This document shows positions 9,687 to 23,702 of a DNA stretch of 64,000 bases, one piece after another; within the stretch, counting starts at the first letter, position 1; every line of letters starts with the position of its first letter. The stretch covers positions 2,294,001-2,358,000 of the forward strand of contig NZ_CP132381.1 of NCBI RefSeq assembly GCF_030758615.1, written 5' to 3'. The notes under the pieces are model-generated. The model made no database searches and was not told the DNA's origin. It was given only the letters and a program-made list of their open reading frames with translations. Source of the DNA: Gilliamella apis (lineage in GTDB: Bacteria; Pseudomonadota; Gammaproteobacteria; Enterobacterales; Orbaceae). Made by a program: the position numbers and the translations under genes.

Positions 9687-9831
9687 AATATCGTTAGTAA
9701 TTAAAACCAATATTAATTCAGAATATAAACTACTATAAACATTGTCTGGAATAATGTACAGCAAAAGGCAAATAGCTGTTTTTGCGCAACCTAATACCGT
9801 AGAATTGTTTTTTTAGAAGATTTTAGGCTTT

Positions 9832-10627
9832 AAAAACCCCACTCCTCAAATTTTTTTATTCGGTGGATTTCGGACGTTTTTTTATTTGGTAGCTAGTTCT
9901 ATACGACGATTACGTCCGAGCAAAGAGGGTTCACGCGAACCCTCTTTACCAACTCCCGCGGCGACCACGCAAGTGGTCACGATGTGACAGCCTTCCGCCT
10001 TCGTTCGTTTTAAAGCACCAGCGGTTATTTGTTCCTAACAAAAAAACAGCCTTGTCAAACATCCCTGTTTGCCATGCTAACCTCACTCAGTTATCAACAC
10101 ATTGCTCATGTCGCTAAATGAGAAGCACTAAACTAATTGATAAAAATAAACTTTTATTATTGACCCTAGCTGATGTTATAACTAATTTTAGTGATTTATC
10201 GGATGGATTTTAGTCTTAAAAACCCCGCTCCTCAAATTTTTTTATTCGGTGAGTTTCGGACGTTTTGTTGTTTAATAGCTAGTTCTATACGGAGATTACG
10301 TCCGAGTAAAGAGGGTTTGCGCAAACCCTCTTTACCAACTCCCGCGGCGACCACGCAAGTGGTCACGATGTGACTGCCTTCCGCCTGCGTTCGCTCTTAA
10401 AGCACCAGCGGTTATTTGTTCCTAACAAAAAAACAGCCTTGTCAAACTTCCCTTTTGCCATGCTAACCTCACTCAGTTATCAGCACATTGCTAAAGTCGC
10501 TAAATGAGAAGCACTAAACTAATTGATAAAAATAAACTTTTATTATTGACCCTAGCTGATGTTATAACTAATTTTAGTGATTTATCGGATGGATTTTAGT
10601 CTTAAAAACCCCGCTCCTCAAAATTTT
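9832..10627. repeat. Two tandem 386-bp copies of a structured non-coding element, plus start of a third
   Basis: Unit 1 covers 9832-10217 and unit 2 covers 10218-10603; a partial third copy starts at 10604 and is replaced by array 1 sequence after about 23 bases. Each unit starts AAAAACCCC, contains TCGGACGT...ACGTCCGA, then a long hairpin (9922-9947 and 10308-10333), then GACCACGCAAGTGGTC. The hairpin changes in a compensatory way between units (GTTC/GAAC in unit 1, GTTT/AAAC in unit 2). Short minus-strand ORFs of 32-38 codons in the units share an FDKAVFLLGTNNRWCFK start but diverge afterwards. Function unknown. It fills the 980-bp gap between the LysR gene and array 1. Confidence 0.85.
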
Positions 10628-10667: not shown

Positions 10668-10935
10668 TTTCTAAACGGCTTATGCAGCCTTGAAGTAACC
10701 ATCTGGGATTTCCCCCACTTCTTGCATTTTCTAAACGGCTTATGCAGCCTTGAAGACAACATTCGACGAAATCAAAGAACTTGCGCTTTTCTAAACGGCT
10801 TATGCAGCCTTGAAGGTACTTTGCAGTTTATGGGTGCCCCTCGTACTTTTCTAAACGGCTTATGCAGCCTTGAAGGGTAAAATCGCGGTGACGGGGACAT
10901 GTTCCAGTTTCTAAACGGCTTATGCAGCCTTGAAG
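10668..10935 (-). CRISPR. CRISPR array 1, subtype I-F-like, 5 repeats and 4 spacers
   Basis: Five identical 28-bp repeats start at 10668, 10728, 10788, 10848 and 10908, separated by 32-bp spacers. In crRNA sense (minus strand) each repeat begins CTTCAAGG, folds as GGCT-GCATA-AGCC and ends with the 8-nt handle TTTAGAAA. The leader is at the right end. Spacer 3 (10816-10847) is identical to spacer 4 of array 2. A fragment ACAGCCTTGAAC at 10636-10647 may be the remnant of a sixth, leader-distal repeat. It lies downstream of csy4, the usual I-F position. Confidence 0.97.
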
Positions 10936-11207: not shown

Positions 11208-11777
11208 TTAAAAATCAGGAACAGTTGCTGTTTTGCTGAGTCCGTAACTATTAAATGTTCCTTCAACAGCCGTTGCACATTTTTGTTGTTTCAGCCACAT
11301 AATAAAATGTTGCCCAGTGCTTTTGCTAGCAAAATGAAGGTGTGGATAGTTCAAATGAAGGCTGCCCCATTTTTCAACCATTTTGTTTTTTACCTCGGCT
11401 GACCATTTACCTTGTGCGGTTAAACGTTTTTCGGCTCGTCTTAAAGCACTTTGTCCTTTAGGATTGATACGAATTAAGCGTAGGTAACCTTTAACACTTG
11501 TCGGTACAGATGCTATTGGCAAAGCTAACGTGTAATCACTAACTACGGCCTGCTGCTGTAAGGCCGTTTTAAATTGTTGTAACTGCGCTTCATCGCCAAA
11601 TAACCGGATAATCCCACCTAATGTTCTGTGGACATTATAACAAGGAAAGCTAACCGCAATATTGCCTTGATGATTAACTAACACCTGATGCAGTGATTGC
11701 ATAACTTGATTAATCACTTCAGTTTCAGTTATCTCCAGTTGTGGAATTGCCCGTAGTTCAAAATAGTGAGTAAGCAT
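11208..11777 (-). CDS. cas6f: Cas6f (Csy4), crRNA-processing endoribonuclease
   Basis: Csy4 cuts pre-crRNA at the base of the repeat hairpin and stays bound as the head of the Csy complex. The 189-aa product starting MLTHYFELRAIP has the Csy4 pattern: an N-terminal ferredoxin-like fold, SLHQVLVNHQGNIAVSF with the candidate catalytic His near residue 30, and an Arg-rich middle (GYLRLIRI, LRRAEKRL near 115-140). The ATG at 11777 has AAGGAG 7 nt upstream, so the longer frame to 11816 is not used. It is 4 bp after csy3. It must process two array repeat types and the mini-CRISPR hairpins if all are active. Confidence 0.92.
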   Translation of the reverse strand: MLTHYFELRAIPQLEITETEVINQVMQSLHQVLVNHQGNIAVSFPCYNVHRTLGGIIRLFGDEAQLQQFKTALQQQAVVSDYTLALPIASVPTSVKGYLRLIRINPKGQSALRRAEKRLTAQGKWSAEVKNKMVEKWGSLHLNYPHLHFASKSTGQHFIMWLKQQKCATAVEGTFNSYGLSKTATVPDF

Positions 11778-11781
11778 AATA

Positions 11782-12795
11782 TTACTCCTTACCACTAGCA
11801 CCAAATACACCACCACGAATCAGAACTGCAATAACATAATGTTGTTGTTCAAGCGTTGGTTTTTCACCTTTCAGTACCCAATTATCAAATAAGGTATAAA
11901 AATCCTGTTTTTGTTTAGGTTGTCTAAAAGCATGTCCCATAGTGGTAACTGCACCATAAGGTTCAATGGCAATCGGAAACTCGGCGTTTTCAGCATACCA
12001 AGTATCAATAGTTCGAATGGCATTGCTGATTTTTTGCGAGTGCATTGCTGCTTGACCGTTTTTTTCATACAAGACTTTACTTTTTTCTTTACCAGTATCC
12101 AAAATCAATTCTTGTGATGGATAGACCTCTTGCCCTAATCCCATTTTTAATTTGGCTTGAATATCGAAAATAACAAACTCTTTGCCTAATAAGCCAGCTT
12201 CAATCAAAGCAGCGAGGTCATTTACCGATTTGTCATCACAATCAAATGAATTTAATTGATATTGCTTAACATCACTCACTTCAATCGTTGCTATTTTGTC
12301 ATCTTTTTTACGAGTAATGCTAATACTGATTTGTTCAGCAGCCATACGATTACGCCATAACCAACGACCATTTAAAATATTAATTGCATAACGTTTGGCT
12401 AGTGCTTGCAACCCTTCTGATTTGATATAGCTTTGAGTCGTTTTGGTTAACTCATCTTGATAGTCAACATTATTACAAACTGATGGCGAACCTAAGAAAG
12501 GTAGTACTTTACAGCTCCATTTAACCACTAAGGTATCTTTATCGGCATCAAGCGCTGCAACATCGACTGTTTGTAAATTAGCTTTTTGAATTTCAGCATC
12601 TAATTTAGCCGGATCATTTGCTAAAGCATTTTTAAGCCGATTCGAAATGGTACCGCGAACAGATTTTTCAGATAATAAAACTGGTGTTAATTTTTGGTCA
12701 TCATGGCTATTTTGCTGGGCAAAAATGGCATCAGAAATATCAAAACTACGTTCAAAGGCTAATACTGATGCGGTGGTGATTTTATCTTTACTCAT
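11782..12795 (-). CDS. csy3: Cas7f (Csy3), Cascade backbone subunit
   Basis: Six copies of Csy3 coat the crRNA spacer in the I-F surveillance complex; their thumbs flip out every sixth crRNA base. The 337-aa protein begins MSKDKITTASVLAFERS and has the family segments NGRWLWRNR (near 146) and the FVIFDIQAKLKMGLGQEVYP region near residue 210. Length is normal. It is the third gene of the csy operon, with 35 bp after csy2. Confidence 0.95.
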   Translation of the reverse strand: MSKDKITTASVLAFERSFDISDAIFAQQNSHDDQKLTPVLLSEKSVRGTISNRLKNALANDPAKLDAEIQKANLQTVDVAALDADKDTLVVKWSCKVLPFLGSPSVCNNVDYQDELTKTTQSYIKSEGLQALAKRYAINILNGRWLWRNRMAAEQISISITRKKDDKIATIEVSDVKQYQLNSFDCDDKSVNDLAALIEAGLLGKEFVIFDIQAKLKMGLGQEVYPSQELILDTGKEKSKVLYEKNGQAAMHSQKISNAIRTIDTWYAENAEFPIAIEPYGAVTTMGHAFRQPKQKQDFYTLFDNWVLKGEKPTLEQQHYVIAVLIRGGVFGASGKE

Positions 12796-12830: not shown

Positions 12831-13748
12831 TTAATCTTGATTAATAATATATATATCTGCGTCATTCGATTGCAGTTCGCTGCATTTATAACGCCAAAAT
12901 GCTTGAGATAAATTGTCTTGTAACCTTAGTGGAAATACCCACTTACCTAATCCATAAATACATTCGACAAATTGCGTTGGATGCTCATTACTACGGGCAT
13001 GTTCAACCTTTCCTGCTTCAAACAGTGGTGAAATAGCTTGATAACCAAGGGGTATTGGCACTAACCAACCTCGTCCCTGCTTGACCGATGTGGTTTGCCA
13101 CTGATCTTTTTCTTGTGGATGATGGTGCAACATGGCAGTTTCAACTAATGCATCAAGTGCAGTGGCATTCGGATCTTTTTGTTGTAGCTCCGCAGTGATT
13201 TCCTGTAAATCTTGCTGCGCTTCAACTAAGACAAAAGCAGGTAATAAAGCTTGAGTTAAATCATCAAGAGATTCTGAAGCTGAATATAATCCTACTGATT
13301 CAATCTCAATAACTTGACCACCAGCAATACGTTGCTGATAGAGCTTTTGTGTTATCATGTTAATAAATTTTTCTTGATCATTAACATCATCGAGGGTTTC
13401 ACGATCCTCAATTTTTACCTCAACAATTAAAGACACATCTAGATGTACCCGTCCTTCTTCGATAATCGAGCGGGTATCACCATTTTTAGCTAACGGATTG
13501 CGAGTGAGTCGAAATGTATAATCCGCATAATTATTAGGTCGATAAACTTGTACATCACAATCATGACAAGCGATTAATACACCATCCAGATAGATAGGAT
13601 CATCCGACTCAATTTTTCGATTTAAAGCATGAATCGCCCCTAAAAAGCCAGAGATAGCCGGAAAACCATAAGTTAATGGACTGGAGATGGCATTGGCATT
13701 ATGAATTTTGACATGGTCAAATAGAAGATAGAATTTTAAAGATGCCAT
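12831..13748 (-). CDS. csy2: Cas5f (Csy2), Cascade tail subunit
   Basis: Csy2 forms with Csy1 the tail that holds the crRNA 5' handle and helps in PAM recognition. The 305-aa protein starts MASLKFYLLFDHVKIHNANA and contains PLTYGFPAISGFLGAIHAL near residue 25, a hallmark of Csy2. The ATG shares one base with the csy1 stop codon (TAATG), so translation is probably coupled to csy1 and would be affected if the csy1 frameshift is real. Confidence 0.94.
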   Translation of the reverse strand: MASLKFYLLFDHVKIHNANAISSPLTYGFPAISGFLGAIHALNRKIESDDPIYLDGVLIACHDCDVQVYRPNNYADYTFRLTRNPLAKNGDTRSIIEEGRVHLDVSLIVEVKIEDRETLDDVNDQEKFINMITQKLYQQRIAGGQVIEIESVGLYSASESLDDLTQALLPAFVLVEAQQDLQEITAELQQKDPNATALDALVETAMLHHHPQEKDQWQTTSVKQGRGWLVPIPLGYQAISPLFEAGKVEHARSNEHPTQFVECIYGLGKWVFPLRLQDNLSQAFWRYKCSELQSNDADIYIINQD

Positions 13749-15128
13749 TAGAAGATCCCCTCCTTCCTACGTTGACTTGCTTTTACTGCCGCGTGAAATT
13801 CACGACACCATTCTCGATATTCAACATCAGAAAATTGTGTTTCAATATTTTTGAATTTCTTTTTTAAGGCTTTTTGAATCCAGGAAGCAAAATCAAGCTC
13901 TAACTCCCCTAACCAATCACCTTGCTCATACTGATGTTTAAAGTTTTCTTCATCTTCAAGTTCAGCCCGATTAGGATCAAGCCAAAGTTTTTGTGACATT
14001 GGCAACGAATAATCACGACTCCAACCTGCCGGCATGGAAGTTTGTATATTCCGAGCAAATTTAAGCAATAAAGTTAAAATAACCGCAAAGGCATCTTTTC
14101 GGTTATCCCGCTCTTCAACTACATTTTTGGGTGCAGCAACCATATCGAACAATAATCGAAAACCAAATCGACAGAAATACTGTAAGGAATGGTCAAATAC
14201 ATTTTTTTTATTTAAGCTGATTGACGGAAATCGAGAATCGCTCGAATTTAGGTGGCATTGAAGGTAATAAAAAATTACGACCGCCTTGATTACTAGTTAA
14301 TTGACTTACCCCTTGTGGATTACTCCCTCCAAGTTTAACCACCGCAAGCTCATGAAAAGTAAAATAAGGTTGATGTTCGGCTCCCTTCAAGCGCCGTTGT
14401 TCACGAGCTTTTTTATTTTCTTCGGAAAAGCGGGTTTGTACTTTTTGATAGACGACATTACACAAAGATGTGGGATGCAGAGGAACAAGCAAACGATAAT
14501 TATCTTCTTGTTGTGACAAATAACTCTCTTCACTATTCGGCCAATAAAGTTGCTTATTAAGTTCGTCAGCTTTCGGTTTTTCAAAATCATTAAAAATAAC
14601 TTTTTTAAAATTGGCTAAATAGATTGCTGCTTTCTGCTCATCATCAGATAGCGCTTTTAGTACAGCTGGATGATCGTCAATAATTAATTCTAATAATGTT
14701 TTATCTCCATTAATACATTGATTCAATAGAGAAAATATATCTAAACCGGCAGCATTTCCTGAACTATCAGCTACTAAATGTGTTGGTGTTGATGAAGATA
14801 CATATTGCTGTTCATTTGGTTTGGTAATTGTAAAATTGTTAACGTTATCACCTAAACTTGAAGAATGAATGGCCTTAGAAGAGTGGTGACAAATGGATAT
14901 CCAAAACAATCTACGCGTTGCAGCATCTTCCATCCAATTTTCAAAATCAAATCTTTTACTCAGTTCTGACATCTTCTGTTGAGATTCATTAACAGCCTTT
15001 TGATCGCCCGCTTGTTTAGCTTTTTCTAATTTGGTCAGTTCACTTTTATAACTGCTGTTATTAGCAAGCCGTTGCTGAAGAAAGTCGATAATAACCTTTC
15101 TTATATCTTGCCAAGAAATATTATTCAT
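13748..15128 (-). pseudogene. csy1: Cas8f (Csy1), Cascade large subunit, with one apparent +1 frameshift
   Basis: Csy1 is the I-F large subunit that reads the CC PAM. The first frame (15128-14208) starts MNNISWQDIRK and carries the conserved HPTSLCN and KLGGSNPQGVSQL segments, then stops soon after LPSMPP. The remaining C-terminal part (NVFDHSLQYFCRFGF... to RRKEGIF) continues in the +1 frame to 13748. Removing one base somewhere in 14212-14249, for example from the three-A run (minus strand) at 14247-14249, restores a protein of about 459 aa. The eight-A run just downstream cannot be the cause, because the in-frame TAA comes first. Its start has a strong AAGGAGG site. Either a sequencing error or a real Cascade mutation. 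Confidence 0.88.
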
Positions 15129-15159: not shown

Positions 15160-15192
15160 AAAAAGGCCTATACAATTAAGTATAAGCCTTTT
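15160..15192 (-). terminator. Intrinsic terminator between the 107-aa gene and csy1
   Basis: On the minus strand AAAAGGCTTATAC pairs with GTATAGGCCTTTT (13 bp, one G-T pair) around TTAATT, followed by TTTTTG. It starts 5 bp after the 107-aa stop and ends about 30 bp before csy1, so csy transcription must read through it or start elsewhere. Confidence 0.75.
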
Positions 15193-15196
15193 ATTT

Positions 15197-15520
15197 TTAT
15201 GCTACTTTATAAATTAAATATAACTTTAATATATTAAGTGCTTCATTATTATATAGCCATTGATTATTAGTGTTTAAATGTCTATATTTTGATTGATTGA
15301 GCGCTAAGTTTTTAATCAATAATTCAACTTCTTTTCTAGTTGAGATATTAAGTATTTTCATAATATCTTTTACTGAATAATAATTAGAATTTGATGCTAA
15401 ACTTAAAATAACTTCATCATTTGCAGCTTGTTTATCAATTACAAATTTTTGTAATTTATTAAATACAAATTGGTCAATTGAAATTTGACATTGCATTGTC
15501 AACGTTTTATCCTTAAACAA
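15197..15520 (-). CDS. Unknown 107-aa protein between mini-CRISPR and csy1, possible winged-helix fold
   Basis: I do not recognise this family. The product is 107 aa, Asn- and Leu-rich. A region near residues 48-72 (YYSVKDIMKILNISTRKEVE) looks like a helix-turn-helix, followed by a possible wing (RHLNTNNQWLY) and a hydrophobic final helix (ILKLYLIYKVA). The start is a TTG at 15520 with GGAGG 8 nt upstream; a second TTG or an ATG 6-8 codons later are alternatives. It is the first gene after the crRNA-targeted promoter and is followed by a terminator. Candidate roles, all inferred: a cas regulator, or the toxin part of a Cascade-addiction module. It is not a standard I-F gene. Confidence 0.65.
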   Translation of the reverse strand: MFKDKTLTMQCQISIDQFVFNKLQKFVIDKQAANDEVILSLASNSNYYSVKDIMKILNISTRKEVELLIKNLALNQSKYRHLNTNNQWLYNNEALNILKLYLIYKVA

Positions 15521-15559: not shown

Positions 15560-15586
15560 AACCCCAAATCTCGAACATTTGGGGTT
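15560..15586. promoter_or_regulatory. Leader hairpin upstream of the 107-aa gene
   Basis: AACCCCAAAT and ATTTGGGGTT form a perfect 10-bp stem with a 7-nt loop, between the promoter and the 107-aa start. On the plus strand it is followed by TTTTCTTTT, a classic terminator tail; on the minus strand the tail is weak. It could stop plus-strand read-through or attenuate the csy transcript. Confidence 0.55.
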
Positions 15587-15649
15587 TTCTTTTATATTAC
15601 ATCTAATTTTATAGAAATAATAACATGTAATTTTCATTACATGTTTGTC

Positions 15650-15677
15650 ATTCTATACATTAATCAGTAAAAGTCAA
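15650..15677 (-). promoter_or_regulatory. Promoter of the 107-aa gene / csy operon
   Basis: TTGACT (15677-15672), a 16-bp spacer, and TAGAAT (15655-15650) on the minus strand make a good sigma-70 promoter with a start near 15643. It faces the 107-aa gene and csy1-4. The -35 box lies inside the crRNA-like target site. Confidence 0.7.
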
Positions 15678-15701
15678 TATTTTTAGATCTAATATCATAG
15701 G
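15670..15701 (-). promoter_or_regulatory. Cascade operator: partial protospacer with CC PAM over the -35 box
   Basis: On the minus strand a CC PAM (15701-15700) is followed by TATGATATTAGATCTAA, which matches the first 17 spacer bases of the mini-CRISPR except at positions 6 and 12. Position 18 also mismatches, and pairing is poor beyond 19. Cascade does not read every sixth base, so the effective seed match is 15 of 15. The protospacer footprint covers the -35 hexamer. Partial pairing is expected to allow binding but not Cas3 destruction. Confidence 0.8.
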
Positions 15702-15741
15702 GATAATGTAATTATTTGATAATAATTTATTGCAAACTAAT

Positions 15742-15827
15742 AAGAAAAACCGCCTATTCGGCGGTAATGATTAAGCGAAATATTAGACCTAATTTCATAT
15801 TTCTAAACTACCTATACGGCAGTGCAG
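15742..15827 (-). ncRNA. Mini-CRISPR: crRNA-like regulator of the csy promoter (CreR/CreA-like)
   Basis: Minus strand, 5' to 3': pseudo-repeat 1 (15827-15800), 23 of 28 identical to the array 2 repeat and 24 of 28 to the common I-F repeat, with hairpin CTGCC-GTATA-GGTAG and the exact 8-nt handle TTTAGAAA; a 30-nt spacer (15799-15770); pseudo-repeat 2 (15769-15742), with hairpin CCGCC-GAATA-GGCGG followed by TTTTTCTT, which also looks like an intrinsic terminator. A -10-like TATACT at 15836-15831 would start an RNA at about the first base of pseudo-repeat 1. The spacer matches the promoter site at 15699-15683. Read-through from cas1-cas3 could also make it. Confidence 0.82.
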
Positions 15828-15959
15828 TTAAGTATAGAGTAATTATTCAAGCATTACTAGCATGCACTACTCAGCTGATTATTTTCTATAAAAATAGTTG
15901 AGGAAACACCTTTTTTTAAATATAAAATTTTTCTAAAAAATAATAAATAACCTCTTCTT

Positions 15960-18900
15960 TTAGCTTCTATCTTTATAAAAACCAAAATAGGGATGAAAGC
16001 ACCAGCGTGTTTCGCTATTCACATTAATTGTACAAAATTCATTAGCTAGCCGATAATGATTTTTATCTGGAAAATATTCCGCTATTTGAGTAATCGCTTG
16101 CTCAACGGTATTGGTAAGCCATGGCTGTATCAATGGATTGGTAAATTGCCAATTATCATATTTAAAATTGTAATTTTGTGTATCCTCACACTGTTCGTTT
16201 GGCTTTTGCCAAGCGATTTCGGCATAACTAAATCGGTATTTACCGTTATCATCAAGTTGGCAAATATACTCATCTTGTGGTTGCTCTTGCAGCCTAAAAG
16301 GCGAGATTAACTGTAGATGAACACAATGGTGATGTGCCAAATCAGTTTGCCAATAACTGGTAACATAATTACTTTTACTAGCATTGATTGGAAACAAATT
16401 TGCCATAACCTTATGTTCTAATTCTGCTAGTGTTAAGCCTGCTTGCAAATCAGTCATAATACGAGGAACCGCATTAATATTCGCTAATTGTTCTGATGTT
16501 ATCAGTTGCTCAGTCTTATGGGTTTTTAATAAAAATAATGGTTTTTGCTCAAATCCCGGTTTAGTAAAACAAGCGCTATTAACACCTAAATTGTTGCCAT
16601 TCTTCATCGCTTCTAAATTACTGCCTAGAATCGCCACATTGGCACTTTCGGCCGTTTTTTCCGGTCTATGGCGCCAAACTCGTCCTACTAACTGAATAAT
16701 TGAACGCATTGAAGATGGCTCAACAATTGCCCAATCATAATCATGATCACGTCCAACTTCAGTAACCGGTGTGCCGATGACAATAAATATGTGATGTTGT
16801 TTATCACTGTCTTTTATTGCTGCACGGATTTCAGGTTGTTGAAATAATTTATTAACATCACTACGGTTTAAAATTCTATCCAATTTTTCTTCTAATTGAC
16901 TGCGCAATAGTAGCAGTTGTCTGGCATGATAAACCACCAGATGAAATTGAACATTTGCCGGTAACTCAGTTTGCTGGTAGATTTGCTTAGTGAGCGACAT
17001 CACATCATCAATGTGCGCAAAGCGCATTAAACCGACACTAATTTTTTTGTTGGTTTGCGGATCTTGTTGATGATGCTGTAAATGAAAATGATAAGCTTGA
17101 TCTAATAACTGTTGTGCCAATAGAGCATAGCCTAGTTCTGAATTTTCTTTTTTATTGAATGGGTAATTTAATAATTCTAAAATTTGTCCTCGACGACGAA
17201 TTGTCCCTTGTTGCAACTTATCTATTCTTTTTTCGATAAACTTCGTATGATGATGTTTAAAATTAACCGTATCAGCTATTTGTTCGAATGACTGCTGATA
17301 TTCATCAAACCATCCACAAATAATCCCCTGATTAGATCTTCCTGTATTCTGATTCCAAATTTTTCGACCGGCTTGATAAGCATCAAATAAACCACCAATA
17401 AGGTCTGGCGTTAAGGTGGCTGATGAGAGTAACACTTTACTGCCATAAAGCCCGGCTAAATAAACTAACCTTGCCAAAGCAGGTAAATCTCGCTGATCAA
17501 AATCATCCGGTTCATCTAAAATTAAATCAGCAGTAAGCAACCTTAAGGTAGGGGCAATATATTTGCCGCCTCTGAGACATTCGCTAGCTTGCATTAAGTG
17601 ATCAACGGTACATGTCACAATCGGCGCATAGATCAACTGACGAGCCTTACTGTTTTCGATAATGGTACCAAGCTCACAGTCAGCAATACCACTCTCTGCC
17701 ACATCAATATATTCATCGACTAATGATTCTATCGATTCACAACCAAGAGTTTCTTGATTTATCTCATTTTCATTTTTAGTAATTTTCGGCTGATTTTCTA
17801 ACTCAAATAGGGTCTTTGTTGCTCGACCCCCAACCAAAATAGCCAAATGCTCATCAGTTAAATGCAATCTTTCTCGTAACGCTTTACCTGTTTGTAAAGT
17901 TAATACTCGTAATCCTAAAGCAATCGTAAATCGTACTCCACGCTGTGGATTTGATAATGCATACATAATTCGACCATTAGCTAAGGTTTTACCACAGCCA
18001 GTCGATGCCATATTGACGCCAAAAAAACCATTATCATCACTTAACTGTTGATAACTTTTAGCCAAATCAAAAGCATGGTTTTGCCATTGAAAGCGTTTAA
18101 TGGTAGTGCGCTGCGTAAATGGTTTATGCTGATTAATTGCTGGTAATTCAGCGTTCATTTTAGGTAATAAGCGAGCAAAACGAGCGGTAAGATTAGCAAC
18201 ACCTAATAGATGATCATCCAATCGTTGATTGGCTTGCTGGCTTTTATTGGTATTGGCGATAAGAATATCTTCAACCTTTTGGGCTTCTTCGTCATTGATT
18301 GATATGCTGGAATAGTTATGGTCAGCAACCATAAGACTTAATCGTGATAGATGTAATAATAATGAATCAATATTGGTTAATTGCATTAAAGGTGGGTGAT
18401 TAATTGCCTTGCTTGCATAGCGACTTAATTTTTTAAGCCAAGATTGGCTTAAGGTTATATCACTTTTAAGTTGCCAAAAATCGGCACTGTCTTCAATATT
18501 AAAATTTCTAACCCATTGTTCAACTGCTTTAAATGTTTTAAAAAAGCTTTTTATTGTGAGACCCGAAATATCGAAATCATCTTTTTGCTTATTTTGACAA
18601 TCTTTATATCTAACTGGCATTAAAAAAGGCATGCGATGGTGTGACACAATTAACCAGCCAATCCATTGGGCTAATAATGGCAATTGAGAGAGATCGTTTT
18701 TTTCTGTCTTTGCTAGCTCTTTATACCAATCAGGTGTAATTTGTTGATGATCAGCAAAATTAGCTAAACGGGTTAAAACCTCTTGATTAGTATTACAATC
18801 ACGAATCATCAATAAGAATAACTGTAATGAAATCCACTCATGGCGAAACGGATCACCTGCCAGTCGACTTTTACGTAATTTATCTTGAAAACCGACTGTC

Positions 18901-19283
18901 GCTTTGCCCAAATCATGCAATAGCGCAGCAATGGTTGCGATAAGTTGGATAGATGTGGCATATTGCCAACTATTTTCACTATCATTGCGTAATATATTGC
19001 GCTTAGTACGATTAGTTGGCACTCGGCCTTGTTGATTAAATTGGCTTTTATCACCAACAATCCAGAGTAGATCGGTTAGATTTTTTCCATGCGTCCAGTA
19101 ACAAGCAACGGCAGTATTTTTTCGTGCTGTTTTACGTAATAATTTATACAGTGTCTGTAAACCATCGGCAGTCATCGGCGTTTGCCAAGTTCGTTCACCA
19201 CAACGTTCAGCAAACTGATCGATAATACGACGAGTCTGAGTTAATGCATTTTTCTTGCATTGGCTAACCAGTAAAATATTCAT
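15960..19283 (-). CDS. cas3: Cas2-Cas3 fusion nuclease-helicase, type I-F
   Basis: In subtype I-F the Cas2 integrase subunit is fused to the Cas3 nuclease-helicase, which is recruited by Csy complex R-loops. The 1107-aa protein has an N-terminal Cas2-like domain (MNILLVSQCKKNALTQTRR, about 1-95), an HD nuclease motif (LLHDLGKA near residue 122), Walker A STGCGKT (near 426), the DEAD-like motif LDEPDD (near 588), SSATL (near 622) and the motif VI region QLVGRVWRHR (near 905). Length is typical. The start overlaps cas1 by 4 bp (ATGA). No frameshift or missing motif was seen. Confidence 0.97.
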   Translation of the reverse strand: MNILLVSQCKKNALTQTRRIIDQFAERCGERTWQTPMTADGLQTLYKLLRKTARKNTAVACYWTHGKNLTDLLWIVGDKSQFNQQGRVPTNRTKRNILRNDSENSWQYATSIQLIATIAALLHDLGKATVGFQDKLRKSRLAGDPFRHEWISLQLFLLMIRDCNTNQEVLTRLANFADHQQITPDWYKELAKTEKNDLSQLPLLAQWIGWLIVSHHRMPFLMPVRYKDCQNKQKDDFDISGLTIKSFFKTFKAVEQWVRNFNIEDSADFWQLKSDITLSQSWLKKLSRYASKAINHPPLMQLTNIDSLLLHLSRLSLMVADHNYSSISINDEEAQKVEDILIANTNKSQQANQRLDDHLLGVANLTARFARLLPKMNAELPAINQHKPFTQRTTIKRFQWQNHAFDLAKSYQQLSDDNGFFGVNMASTGCGKTLANGRIMYALSNPQRGVRFTIALGLRVLTLQTGKALRERLHLTDEHLAILVGGRATKTLFELENQPKITKNENEINQETLGCESIESLVDEYIDVAESGIADCELGTIIENSKARQLIYAPIVTCTVDHLMQASECLRGGKYIAPTLRLLTADLILDEPDDFDQRDLPALARLVYLAGLYGSKVLLSSATLTPDLIGGLFDAYQAGRKIWNQNTGRSNQGIICGWFDEYQQSFEQIADTVNFKHHHTKFIEKRIDKLQQGTIRRRGQILELLNYPFNKKENSELGYALLAQQLLDQAYHFHLQHHQQDPQTNKKISVGLMRFAHIDDVMSLTKQIYQQTELPANVQFHLVVYHARQLLLLRSQLEEKLDRILNRSDVNKLFQQPEIRAAIKDSDKQHHIFIVIGTPVTEVGRDHDYDWAIVEPSSMRSIIQLVGRVWRHRPEKTAESANVAILGSNLEAMKNGNNLGVNSACFTKPGFEQKPLFLLKTHKTEQLITSEQLANINAVPRIMTDLQAGLTLAELEHKVMANLFPINASKSNYVTSYWQTDLAHHHCVHLQLISPFRLQEQPQDEYICQLDDNGKYRFSYAEIAWQKPNEQCEDTQNYNFKYDNWQFTNPLIQPWLTNTVEQAITQIAEYFPDKNHYRLANEFCTINVNSETRWCFHPYFGFYKDRS

Positions 19284-20233
19284 GTTCTATCTGCTATCTG
19301 CTTCAATGTATCAATAATCATATCCAGCGCACCTAACTGAGCAAATTGAGAAATACATGCTTGTCGGAACTCTTTTTCGCTATCACCTTGTTTAGCTGAT
19401 ATAAAAGCTTGTGGTAACACTATGCCATCTTTAATAATATCAGCAGCATCAAATACTAGCCCCCCACGTCTGGTTTTGCCATGTAATATAGCCAGACCAT
19501 GTGGTAAGCCTAATACCCAACAAGCTGTTGCTCCTAATCCATAAGCTAAATAATTACCATGATCTAGAAATTGATTAGCAGGATCATAATGCTTGCCGCG
19601 TGAGCCTTGCTGCCGTTTAAAATTATCATCTTGTAAAGTCAGTTGATTTGCCATGCCATAAAGGCGTTTGCTGATGCGCCCTTCAGCAGCTAACAATGCT
19701 TGACTCGTTGCCGCATCTTGAAATTGTTTTTCAGCATCGTTTAACAACGTAGTGAGTTGCTTATCGTCAATTTGCCAATCAAATTTCGGCCAACATTGCT
19801 GAATGATTTTGAGTCGCTGTTGTTGAAGAGTTTTCGCAGCTTGTAGGCGGAGATTATCGTCAAACCAGAATTGACACCAACTTTGCAGATATTCGGTTGC
19901 ACGATATTCACTTTGCGGTGAAAAAAATTGGCAGGCAAATTCCGATTCTGTTGAGGAAAATAGAGGCGTTCCCCCTCCCCCACAAAAGCCAATCATAACT
20001 CCTGCTCGGGAAAGTTCACGCACTGCAGCTTGAGTTAATGAAGTGCCGGTACCAAGTAAAATACAGCTAGTATTAGCTATTGGAATGTTCCAATATAATG
20101 ACTGCTGACCTTGATCGGTCACATATTCAACTCGACCACCATTGACTAAAACTCGACAATGCTCCAAATAATAGATATTAGCACGCTTAGAATGTAAAAT
20201 CGTTTTAAGATCAGACGAATGAATCAAATCCAT
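19280..20233 (-). CDS. cas1: Cas1 integrase, type I-F
   Basis: Metal-dependent integrase that inserts new spacers at the leader end, working with Cas2-3. The 317-aa protein shows the N-terminal beta domain with NIYYLEHCRVLVNGGRVEYV (near 20), and catalytic residues in LAAEGRISKRLYG (Glu near 155), the HG pair in LGLPHGLAILHG (near 240-250) and Asp in VFDAADIIKD. It is the first gene of the cas1-cas3 unit. A repeat-like hairpin lies about 110 bp upstream, in its leader. Confidence 0.96.
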   Translation of the reverse strand: MDLIHSSDLKTILHSKRANIYYLEHCRVLVNGGRVEYVTDQGQQSLYWNIPIANTSCILLGTGTSLTQAAVRELSRAGVMIGFCGGGGTPLFSSTESEFACQFFSPQSEYRATEYLQSWCQFWFDDNLRLQAAKTLQQQRLKIIQQCWPKFDWQIDDKQLTTLLNDAEKQFQDAATSQALLAAEGRISKRLYGMANQLTLQDDNFKRQQGSRGKHYDPANQFLDHGNYLAYGLGATACWVLGLPHGLAILHGKTRRGGLVFDAADIIKDGIVLPQAFISAKQGDSEKEFRQACISQFAQLGALDMIIDTLKQIADRT

Positions 20234-20332: not shown

Positions 20333-20360
20333 ATGATTTTACCGCCTATACGGCATGAAT
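20333..20360 (-). promoter_or_regulatory. Solitary I-F repeat-like hairpin upstream of cas1
   Basis: The plus strand has ACCGCCTATACGGCATGAA, sharing GCCTATACGGCA and TGAA with the common I-F repeat but one base shorter between them. In crRNA sense the hairpin is GCC-GTATA-GGC with a flanking wobble pair, the Cas6f recognition shape. The 8-nt handle is not conserved (TAAAATCA). It sits in the cas1 leader or promoter region. It could be a Cas6f cleavage site or a repeat relic. The rest of the 370-bp interval 20234-20603 shows no gene. Confidence 0.5.
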
Positions 20361-20603
20361 CTCATAGTAAGTTATTTTCTTTTTAAGTTAATACTTAAAT
20401 CATATAATAAACTGTTTAATTGAGGTTTTTGCTAATTATTATTGAATAGCTTAGATGATTTTTTAAATCTGAAGGTATTTTGGGATTAACTTATCAAGTA
20501 CAAGTTTTTTATTTCTATTAAAAAAATTATATTGCTCTAAAAATTGATCTATTTACTAAAACCGACTTTTATTGCTAATTACATTACGAGACTTAGAAAA
20601 AAT

Positions 20604-23194: not shown

Positions 23195-23702
23195 CCACTA
23201 AGCCACCTATACGGCGTTGAACATCATCTGTTAATTCTGGTGCTAACATGAATGTTTCTAAACCACCTATACGGCGTTGAACACTTGATGGCTAGTCGGT
23301 CTCTCTCGAGGCTATTTCTAAACCACCTATACGGCGTTGAACTTAATGAAGGGTTAACTGATTTTACTAAAAGATTTCTAAACCACCTATACGGCGTTGA
23401 ACGTACTTTGCAGTTTATGGGTGCCCCTCGTACTTTTCTAAACCACCTATACGGCGTTGAACAAATCAGTAACTGGCATATTTCGAAATGAGCCTTTCTA
23501 AACCACCTATACGGCGTTGAACTTGATCCGAATCGTGTAATTTTGAGTTGTCAATTTCTAAACCACCTATACGGCGTTGAACTTATTTTCGCTGACACAG
23601 ACAGCAATTTGACTTTTCTAAACCACCTATACGGCGTTGAACATTTAATTTGCGGGTATAATCACAACTTAACTTTTCTAAACCACCTATACGGCGTTGA
23701 AC
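23195..23702 (-). CRISPR. CRISPR array 2, subtype I-F, 9 repeats and 8 spacers
   Basis: 28-bp repeats start at 23195 (degenerate, leader-distal), then 23255 and every 60 bp to 23675; spacers are 32 bp. In crRNA sense (minus) the repeat begins GTTCAA, folds as CGCC-GTATA-GGTG and ends TTTAGAAA. The leader is on the right (23703 onward). Spacer 4 (23403-23434) is identical to spacer 3 of array 1. Compared with array 1, seven repeat positions differ, six of them in paired stem positions. Confidence 0.97.

Follow-up and report, generated by a model that had tools for sequence, protein, structure and literature searches.

In this study, we analyzed a 64,000-nucleotide stretch of the genome of Gilliamella apis (hereafter the window), in which a mini-CRISPR (CRISPR, clustered regularly interspaced short palindromic repeats), consisting of two pseudo-repeats (psiR1 and psiR2) around a single guide, is located in a type I-F cas locus. 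This element is very probably a regulatory guide gene of the CreR/CreA type, which would direct the repression of a nearby promoter without cutting. The reading is carried by the anatomy of the element, the gene order, the co-variation of guide and target, and a 6-nt periodicity of their mismatches, all of which were found in the sequences themselves. As judged from the comparison of genomes, the arrangement of mini-CRISPR and target is beyond chance, and decisive for this are 18 related genomes in which the arrangement recurs while the spacers differ and the targets differ to match. In nature, CRISPR effectors with a regulatory role are known from a few systems; the kind of module is already known, and the type I-F variant with an intervening gene for a protein of 107 amino acids (aa) is new. 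The module comprises the following features:

15831..15836, minus strand: −10-like box TATACT, presumed promoter of the mini-CRISPR, assigned by sequence
15800..15827, minus strand: pseudo-repeat 1 (psiR1), CTGCACTGCCGTATAGGTAGTTTAGAAA, with the 8-nt handle TTTAGAAA and a score against Rfam CRISPR-DR4
15770..15799, minus strand: guide (spacer) of 30 nt, TATGAAATTAGGTCTAATATTTCGCTTAAT, positions 1-17 of which match the target except 6 and 12
15742..15769, minus strand: pseudo-repeat 2 (psiR2), CATTACCGCCGAATAGGCGGTTTTTCTT, with the Csy4-type hairpin CCGCC-GAATA-GGCGG and a T-tract in place of the handle
15668..15701, minus strand: target, composed of a CC protospacer-adjacent motif (PAM; 15701-15700) and a 32-nt protospacer
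15650..15677, minus strand: sigma-70-like promoter TTGACT-16-TAGAAT, with the −35 box inside the protospacer

For comparison, 44 genomes of the family were sampled, of which 23 contain csy1 and 15 the 107-aa gene, and the region upstream of csy1 was compared between the window and the 22 other csy1 loci (L003-L024). An initial annotation of the window had placed a pseudo-repeat, a 30-nt spacer and a second pseudo-repeat on the minus strand between cas2-3 and the csy genes, and this could be read directly from the DNA. Two repeat-like elements flanking one guide were present in 19 of the 23 csy1 loci including the window; three loci do not have them and one (L022) is cut by a contig end. Against Rfam CRISPR-DR4, psiR1 of the window reached an expect value (E) of 4.3e-5 and 32 bits, which is under the gathering score of 35. 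The RNA from psiR1 to psiR2 folds with a z-score of −3.2, and 3 of 200 shuffled sequences folded as well or better. The handle ends with AGAAA in all 19 copies of psiR1 and in none of the 19 copies of psiR2. The latter is also terminator-like, with at least five T within the eight bases after the hairpin in 15 of 19 copies, the remaining four being the L017 group. Just upstream of psiR1, a TATACT or TATAAT box was found in 18 of the 19 mini-CRISPRs, and in L013 the box precedes an extra repeat. Since this −10-like box adjoins psiR1, transcription should begin at or just before the repeat. Production of the guide RNA would need only one Csy4 cut and termination. Guide lengths of 20-38 nt across the 19 mini-CRISPRs fall inside the range of 14-176 nt given for spacers of I-F1 Cascade in vitro in the accessible part of PMC7296934, where acceptance of a C or CT PAM is also stated. 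The first 25 nt of the window guide gave no exact match in IMG/VR, and a viral origin of the guide was set aside on this basis. In L013, the mini-CRISPR is preceded by a second repeat and spacer, at about 555-680 of the oriented locus.

The target in the window, TATGATATTAGATCTAA (15699-15683), lies directly behind CC and begins 42 nt after psiR2. Guide positions 1-17 match it except 6 and 12, position 18 is mismatched, and few matches follow further on. The same CC-flanked site, with mismatches at 6 and 12, the next at 18 and matches at all 15 other positions, had been named in the initial annotation, and direct reading of the DNA agrees with it. It had also been stated that the protospacer covers the TTGACT −35 box. 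This is correct for the standard 32-nt protospacer, in which the box occupies positions 23-28, but not for the 17 paired bases, beyond which it lies. The window is part of a 2.71-Mb single-contig genome, in which a single site fits a pattern of CC and the 15 fixed bases, with 6 and 12 left free, without any mismatch; with two mismatches allowed, the spacer itself and one other site are added. Within the window, three matches with at most three mismatches (the target, the spacer and a weak one) were found compared with 0.27 expected, and none of 100 shuffles reached three.

All 19 mini-CRISPRs have a CC- or CT-flanked target downstream on the same strand, although their spacers differ widely. 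Without any PAM condition, the best site between psiR2 and csy1 was unique in 15 of the 19 loci, and two sites were tied in L003, L009, L016 and L018. These 23 best sites are all on the gene strand, 21 of them behind CC and two behind CT (L005, L013). With CC required, 17 of the 19 guides scored 12-15 of 15 and 14 scored at least 13, compared with 35 and 5 of 3,800 shuffled guides reaching 12 and 13, respectively. The contrast is weaker without the PAM condition because the region is AT-rich, and 1,055 and 188 of 3,800 shuffled guides then reached these values. Guides were also placed on the gap of another genome. Of 342 ordered pairs, the 304 with guide differences at six or more of 18 positions were used, and 12 or 13 was obtained in 77 pairs, 13 in three, and never a higher score. 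The complementarity, which is PAM-flanked, partial and too short for interference, is directed to a nearby promoter: The best-scoring −35 box starts inside the 32-nt protospacer in 12 of the 19 loci when the promoter-distal site is used for L009 and L018, and the other target site of these two loci also has TTGACT inside the protospacer. With respect to the tied sites, the guides of L003 and L016 each have two PAM-flanked targets with a spacing of 34 and 46 nt, and the first target is no more than a few bases away from the end of psiR2. In L009 and L018, the second, equally good CC-flanked target for the own guide is at 746, and a second repeat-like handle with a guide-like stretch and no clear psiR2 was seen by eye between the two target sites (region at about 287-900 of the oriented loci).

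Guide and target change together across the relatives. At the non-sixth positions among 1-17, genome pairs differ 1,204 times in their spacers, and in 956 of these cases the target shows the corresponding change, the pairs being non-independent. The co-conservation of spacer and target, which had been proposed earlier as a check, was found for each of the 19 mini-CRISPRs. The window and L012 have 107-aa open reading frames (ORFs) that are 97% identical and 92% identity upstream of psiR1; from psiR1 to the target end, identity is 59%, and in the 5′-untranslated region (UTR) 46%, and each guide fits its own target. In L016, the 80 nt before psiR1 are as in the window but for one base, and guide and target are of the L003 kind. 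It thus looks as if guide, target and promoter have been exchanged between strains as one cassette.

For a mismatch profile along the guide, we used 21 distinct guide-site pairs, i.e., the 23 sites minus the two of L018, which duplicate those of L009. Positions 1-5 and 7 had no mismatch in any of the 21 pairs. Mismatches were found in 9 pairs at position 6, in 17 at position 12 and in 11 at position 18, compared with one at position 8, two each at 9 and 10, three at 11, one at 13, five to six at 14-16 and two at 17. For positions 19-30 pooled, 125 of 222 were mismatched, which is near the 62% expected from base composition. Positions 6 and 12 together were mismatched in 26 of 42 cases, the other positions among 1-11 in 8 of 210 (Fisher p 9.6e-18, uncorrected for shared ancestry and no true probability because the rows are related). 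With one site per locus, the values were 21/36 and 6/180 (p 1.4e-14), and with the promoter-proximal site used for L009 too, 23/36 and 7/180. When similar guides were merged into 3, 4, 8 or 12 groups (one site per locus), phase 6 was the sole positive phase each time, with 0.53-0.65 compared with −0.16 to −0.04 for the other phases; the partial complementarity with a 6-nt period suggested by the initial annotation is supported. The guides of L017, L020, L021 and L023 are clearly of common ancestry and several guides begin with TATGA, so that the number of independent events is less than 21. Provided that the sequence matches on the DNA correspond to pairings inside the Csy complex, the 21 guide-site pairs tested by evolution in one family reveal the rule for guides directly: 1-5 and 7 are never broken, 6, 12 and 18 are free, and little pairing is needed past about 17. 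The profile would then be the trace left in nature by the flipped-out bases of type I-F, and also a design rule for cut-free repression.

For transcription, processing, binding, repression and the purpose of the module, we infer the following course. The transcript would start at psiR1, Csy4 would probably cut after the psiR1 hairpin and leave the 5′ handle UUUAGAAA, and the psiR2 hairpin would form the end of the transcript, as a Csy4-type 3′ hairpin and terminator in one. The guide RNA would be loaded into the Csy complex, which would bind the CC-flanked site by pairing over about 17 nt with every sixth base free. The promoter would be covered and not cut because Cas2/3 would not be triggered by so short an R-loop; according to the accessible part of PMC7296934, cleavage by Cas2/3 is lost when R-loops are truncated. 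In the window, the repressed unit would be the 107-aa winged-helix gene first, with csy1-4 possibly affected via terminator read-through, and in some relatives it would be csy1-4 directly. Release would occur when the Csy complex is titrated by CRISPR RNA (crRNA) or blocked. The inducing conditions proposed in the initial annotation, such as a low crRNA level or an anti-CRISPR, are taken from published work on CreR and CreTA and would have to apply here by analogy.

The known systems nearest to this module are CreR, CreTA and CrePA. CreR RNAs are reportedly cas-regulating RNAs of types I-B, I-E and V-A, as described by Liu et al. in Cell Host Microbe in 2023. The same three types are named in the accessible part of PMC12737573, and CreR is also treated in what is available of the review PMC13131331. 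Common to CreR and the window module are a mini-CRISPR in the cas locus, a guide of limited complementarity to a promoter of that locus, and no cutting to be expected. The window module differs by belonging to type I-F, as far as types are given in these texts, and, in 14 of 19 loci, by a small gene that is followed by a terminator-like hairpin and separates the cas genes from the targeted promoter. In Acinetobacter, a type I-F CreTA sits in the cas3-csy1 gap (PMC10097628, accessible part). There, CreA represses via a guide of 20 nt in which positions 6, 11 and 18 stay unpaired; mutating 2-5, 7-9 or 13-17 abolished repression, mutating 1 did so only partly, and mutating 10 or 12 did not. What is repressed is an RNA that contains a 33-bp ORF and runs divergently from creA. 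Judged by this part of the paper, CreTA and the window module are alike in the cas3-csy1 position, the psiR1-guide-psiR2 order, the CC PAM, the unpaired position 6 and pairing over fewer than 20 positions. They differ in that the divergent RNA is replaced by a protein gene oriented like the guide gene, its product having 107 aa, and in that, unlike in CreTA as described there, psiR1 keeps its handle and psiR2 has lost it. The mutation data are independent experimental evidence in favor of a profile with these general features, although 11 and not 12 is the naturally unpaired position in Acinetobacter. In the open-access literature on Gilliamella and CRISPR, the element was not described among the matches listed, and an earlier mention is possible in the supplement of PMC10097628, where additional cas3-csy1 modules are listed.

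The cas locus is on the minus strand in the order cas1, cas2-3, the gap with mini-CRISPR and target, the 107-aa gene, csy1, csy2, csy3 and csy4:

19280..20233, minus strand: cas1 (PF01867)
15960..19283, minus strand: cas2-3 (PF21384 and others)
15560..15586, given without strand: hairpin within the leader (5′ UTR) of the 107-aa gene, terminator-like when read on the plus strand, with an A-tract before the hairpin
15197..15520, minus strand: 107-aa gene, predicted winged-helix C-terminal domain
15161..15192, minus strand: hairpin resembling an intrinsic terminator, placed between the 107-aa gene and csy1
13748..15128, minus strand: csy1 in two reading frames (14208-15128 and 13748-14152)
12831..13748, minus strand: csy2 (PF09614)
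11782..12795, minus strand: csy3 (PF09615)
11208..11816, minus strand: csy4 (cas6f; PF09618)

The initial annotation had named the promoter of the csy operon as the target. As worded for the window this is not supported, since the 107-aa gene and the terminator-like hairpin intervene; the latter is present in all 14 loci with this arrangement, with 11-13 pairs in a stem free of mismatches and a tail rich in T, and its stem sequences differ. Of the broader claim that the Csy complex represses its own operon or the 107-aa gene, the aim at a promoter in the cas locus stands, but in the window this promoter leads into the 107-aa gene and not into csy1. The same is true for 14 of the 19 loci, window included, and in the other five (L017, L020, L021, L023 and L024), all without the 107-aa gene, the target is directly upstream of csy1. 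The targeted promoter is thus likely to be the csy operon promoter in some relatives and may have such a role in the window. These five loci, and the lack of an equally good guide target between the 107-aa gene and csy1 in the other 14, favor a module serving the autorepression of csy1-4 as in CreR proper, with the 107-aa gene as a passenger or leader gene and csy fed by read-through. The terminator-like hairpin speaks against it, because csy repression would then need read-through or another route, and so does the moderate purifying selection on the 107-aa gene (dN/dS, the ratio of nonsynonymous to synonymous substitution rates, 0.26-0.56 for 10 of the 11 pairs compared and undefined for the other). 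We consider this use of the module quite possible, at somewhat less than even chances.

The 107-aa family comprises 74 database proteins, and all named carriers are Gilliamella or Frischella, the named loci closest to the gene of the window being from Gilliamella apicola and G. apis. The gene is next to csy1 in all 15 carrier genomes and absent from the 21 family genomes without csy1. For 15 members of the family, no convincing assignment was obtained in Pfam, NCBIfam and PHROGs; frataxin (best E 0.0073, 3 of 15 members) and threonine ammonia-lyase (E 0.0006, 1 of 15) were rejected as weak and inconsistent across members, and no viral relatives were confirmed in IMG/VR. An AlphaFold2 model had a mean predicted local distance difference test score (pLDDT) of 71, with residues 1-44 mostly below 50 and residues 51-100 near 90. 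In the modeled fold, a pair of strands and a long helix accompany two helices that are spaced as in a helix-turn-helix. Foldseek placed it near RacA, BldC, MerR-type domains and phage helix-turn-helix/excisionase proteins, with no hit at E ≤ 0.001. The protein is thus likely to be a winged helix by its model and may be a DNA-binding regulator. It represents a new protein family in bee symbionts with named strains, and expression of this family and the state of the immune complex are apparently coupled. In the leader of the gene, the hairpin pairs are kept in 11-12 of 13 aligned sequences (L016 and the G013 locus left out); a covarying RNA was rejected as an explanation, as the RNAalifold covariation term was unfavorable (+0.63) and double changes occurred in one of eight pairs.

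From this, a two-layer circuit can be proposed in which the 107-aa protein is a CRISPR-controlled regulator binding DNA at csy, cas1, the mini-CRISPR or its own gene. It would be in line with the predicted winged helix at a pLDDT of about 90 over residues 51-100, with the regulators among the best Foldseek matches, all above the E limit given, and with the perfect palindrome ATGTAATN4ATTACAT just past the targeted promoter (15625-15642), of which the genome has two exact copies. Against it stand the low confidence of the N-terminal part of the model and the palindrome itself, which is found in only part of the related loci and is without another copy at fewer than three mismatches in the window; with one other exact copy in the genome, it was rejected as a regulon site. 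Such a circuit is a tentative proposal. Marginally more tentative still is its extension, in which the Csy complex and a dedicated guide would silence a winged-helix transcription factor known up to now only from Gilliamella and Frischella, loss or titration of the immune complex would start a transcriptional program, and guide, target and promoter would pass between strains as an orthogonal cassette, with the neighboring genes left almost identical.

In a further proposal, the 107-aa protein would act as an abortive effector or one that arrests growth, silenced by Csy and freed by anti-CRISPRs. CrePA, reportedly described by Shu et al. in Nat Chem Biol in 2025, is a system of this kind. In the accessible part of PMC12737573, it is a CRISPR-repressed protein toxin with a KilA-N domain, and guide-directed repression of a small protein gene, as proposed for the window, would be common to both. 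The 107-aa gene occurs only beside csy1, directly behind the targeted promoter, its family is small and fairly divergent, and the cas3-csy1 position is the same as that of CreTA in Acinetobacter. However, the 15 members examined have no KilA-N or toxin family match, unlike CrePA as described in that text, and the predicted fold is a MerR/excisionase-like winged helix. In addition, the segment from the promoter to the 107-aa gene contains no conserved creT-like mini-ORF downstream of the target in 14 loci, and its length and sequence are unconserved except for the one hairpin. The split of csy1, if real, should release the protein, yet the strain exists. We regard an effector of this type as unlikely.

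Degenerate repeats, the split csy1 and the ordinary arrays common in the genome would also fit a decaying one-spacer array, now functionless, with a spacer once taken from the cells' own locus, but decay would not leave 6 and 12 free with positions 1-5 and 7 intact in each of the 21 pairs, nor would 19 guides still fit their local targets even though these vary from genome to genome, which makes such a relic highly improbable.

For the reading as a regulatory guide gene itself, several points have to be counted on the negative side. A mini-CRISPR was not seen in three of the family's csy1 loci (L014, L015 and L019); in L015, an open frame ending like the cas3 of relatives stops about 114 nt before csy1. 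The guides of L006, L008 and L012 score only 12 of 15, the value that 1,055 of 3,800 shuffles reached without a PAM, and what speaks for their targets is the CC PAM together with matches at every position from 1 to 11. Both CT cases are weak at CC sites, with scores of 10 (L005) and 9 (L013). Placement of the promoter is less clear in 7 of the 19 loci: In L010, L011, L013, L021 and L023, the protospacer ends before the best-scoring −35 box starts, and for L017 and L020 even the best promoter matches are weak. The guide of Acinetobacter is unpaired at 11 according to the accessible part of PMC10097628, whereas the guides of the family are free at 12, and the csy operon lies behind the terminator-like hairpin in 14 of 19 loci. 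Finally, csy1 is split in the assembly of the window and a single match stretch without stops in the other 22 csy1 loci, so that the Csy complex may be dead in this strain and, if the split is real, the module would currently be unpowered.

Outside the family, 59 loci from 73 csy1-positive genomes (40 from the order and 33 from the class sample) were scanned and no convincing module was found. The only hit, L094, is a hairpin pair without a good target. This absence is weak, because the detector was tuned to the one layout of the family positives (17 of 19 found at the strict and 19 of 19 at the loose setting) and the published Acinetobacter modules were not searched by name.

Further CRISPR elements were observed at and around the locus. 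In L019, an ordinary CRISPR array fills the cas3-csy1 gap instead of a mini-CRISPR (766-1006, oriented). A solo degenerate CRISPR repeat is located upstream of cas1 in the window (20335-20365). It was rejected as a second mini-CRISPR and is probably the relic of an array, because it resembles the degenerate end-repeat of the arrays at the same place in L126 and L136; arrays upstream of cas1 were found in 3 of 13 relatives examined (L125, L126 and L136). Many I-F arrays with slightly different repeats are dispersed on the chromosome, e.g., at 946112, 1277888, 1285600, 1357230, 1360963, 1721090 and 2186783, and a one-spacer array with a leader-like stretch is at about 1364393 of the genome (L055). 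Two arrays of the window with clearly different repeats have one identical spacer in common (10816-10847 and 23403-23434). Beside the first of these arrays, positions 9806-10627 form a tandem duplication with a period of 386 bp, the pieces of which are 86-98% identical.
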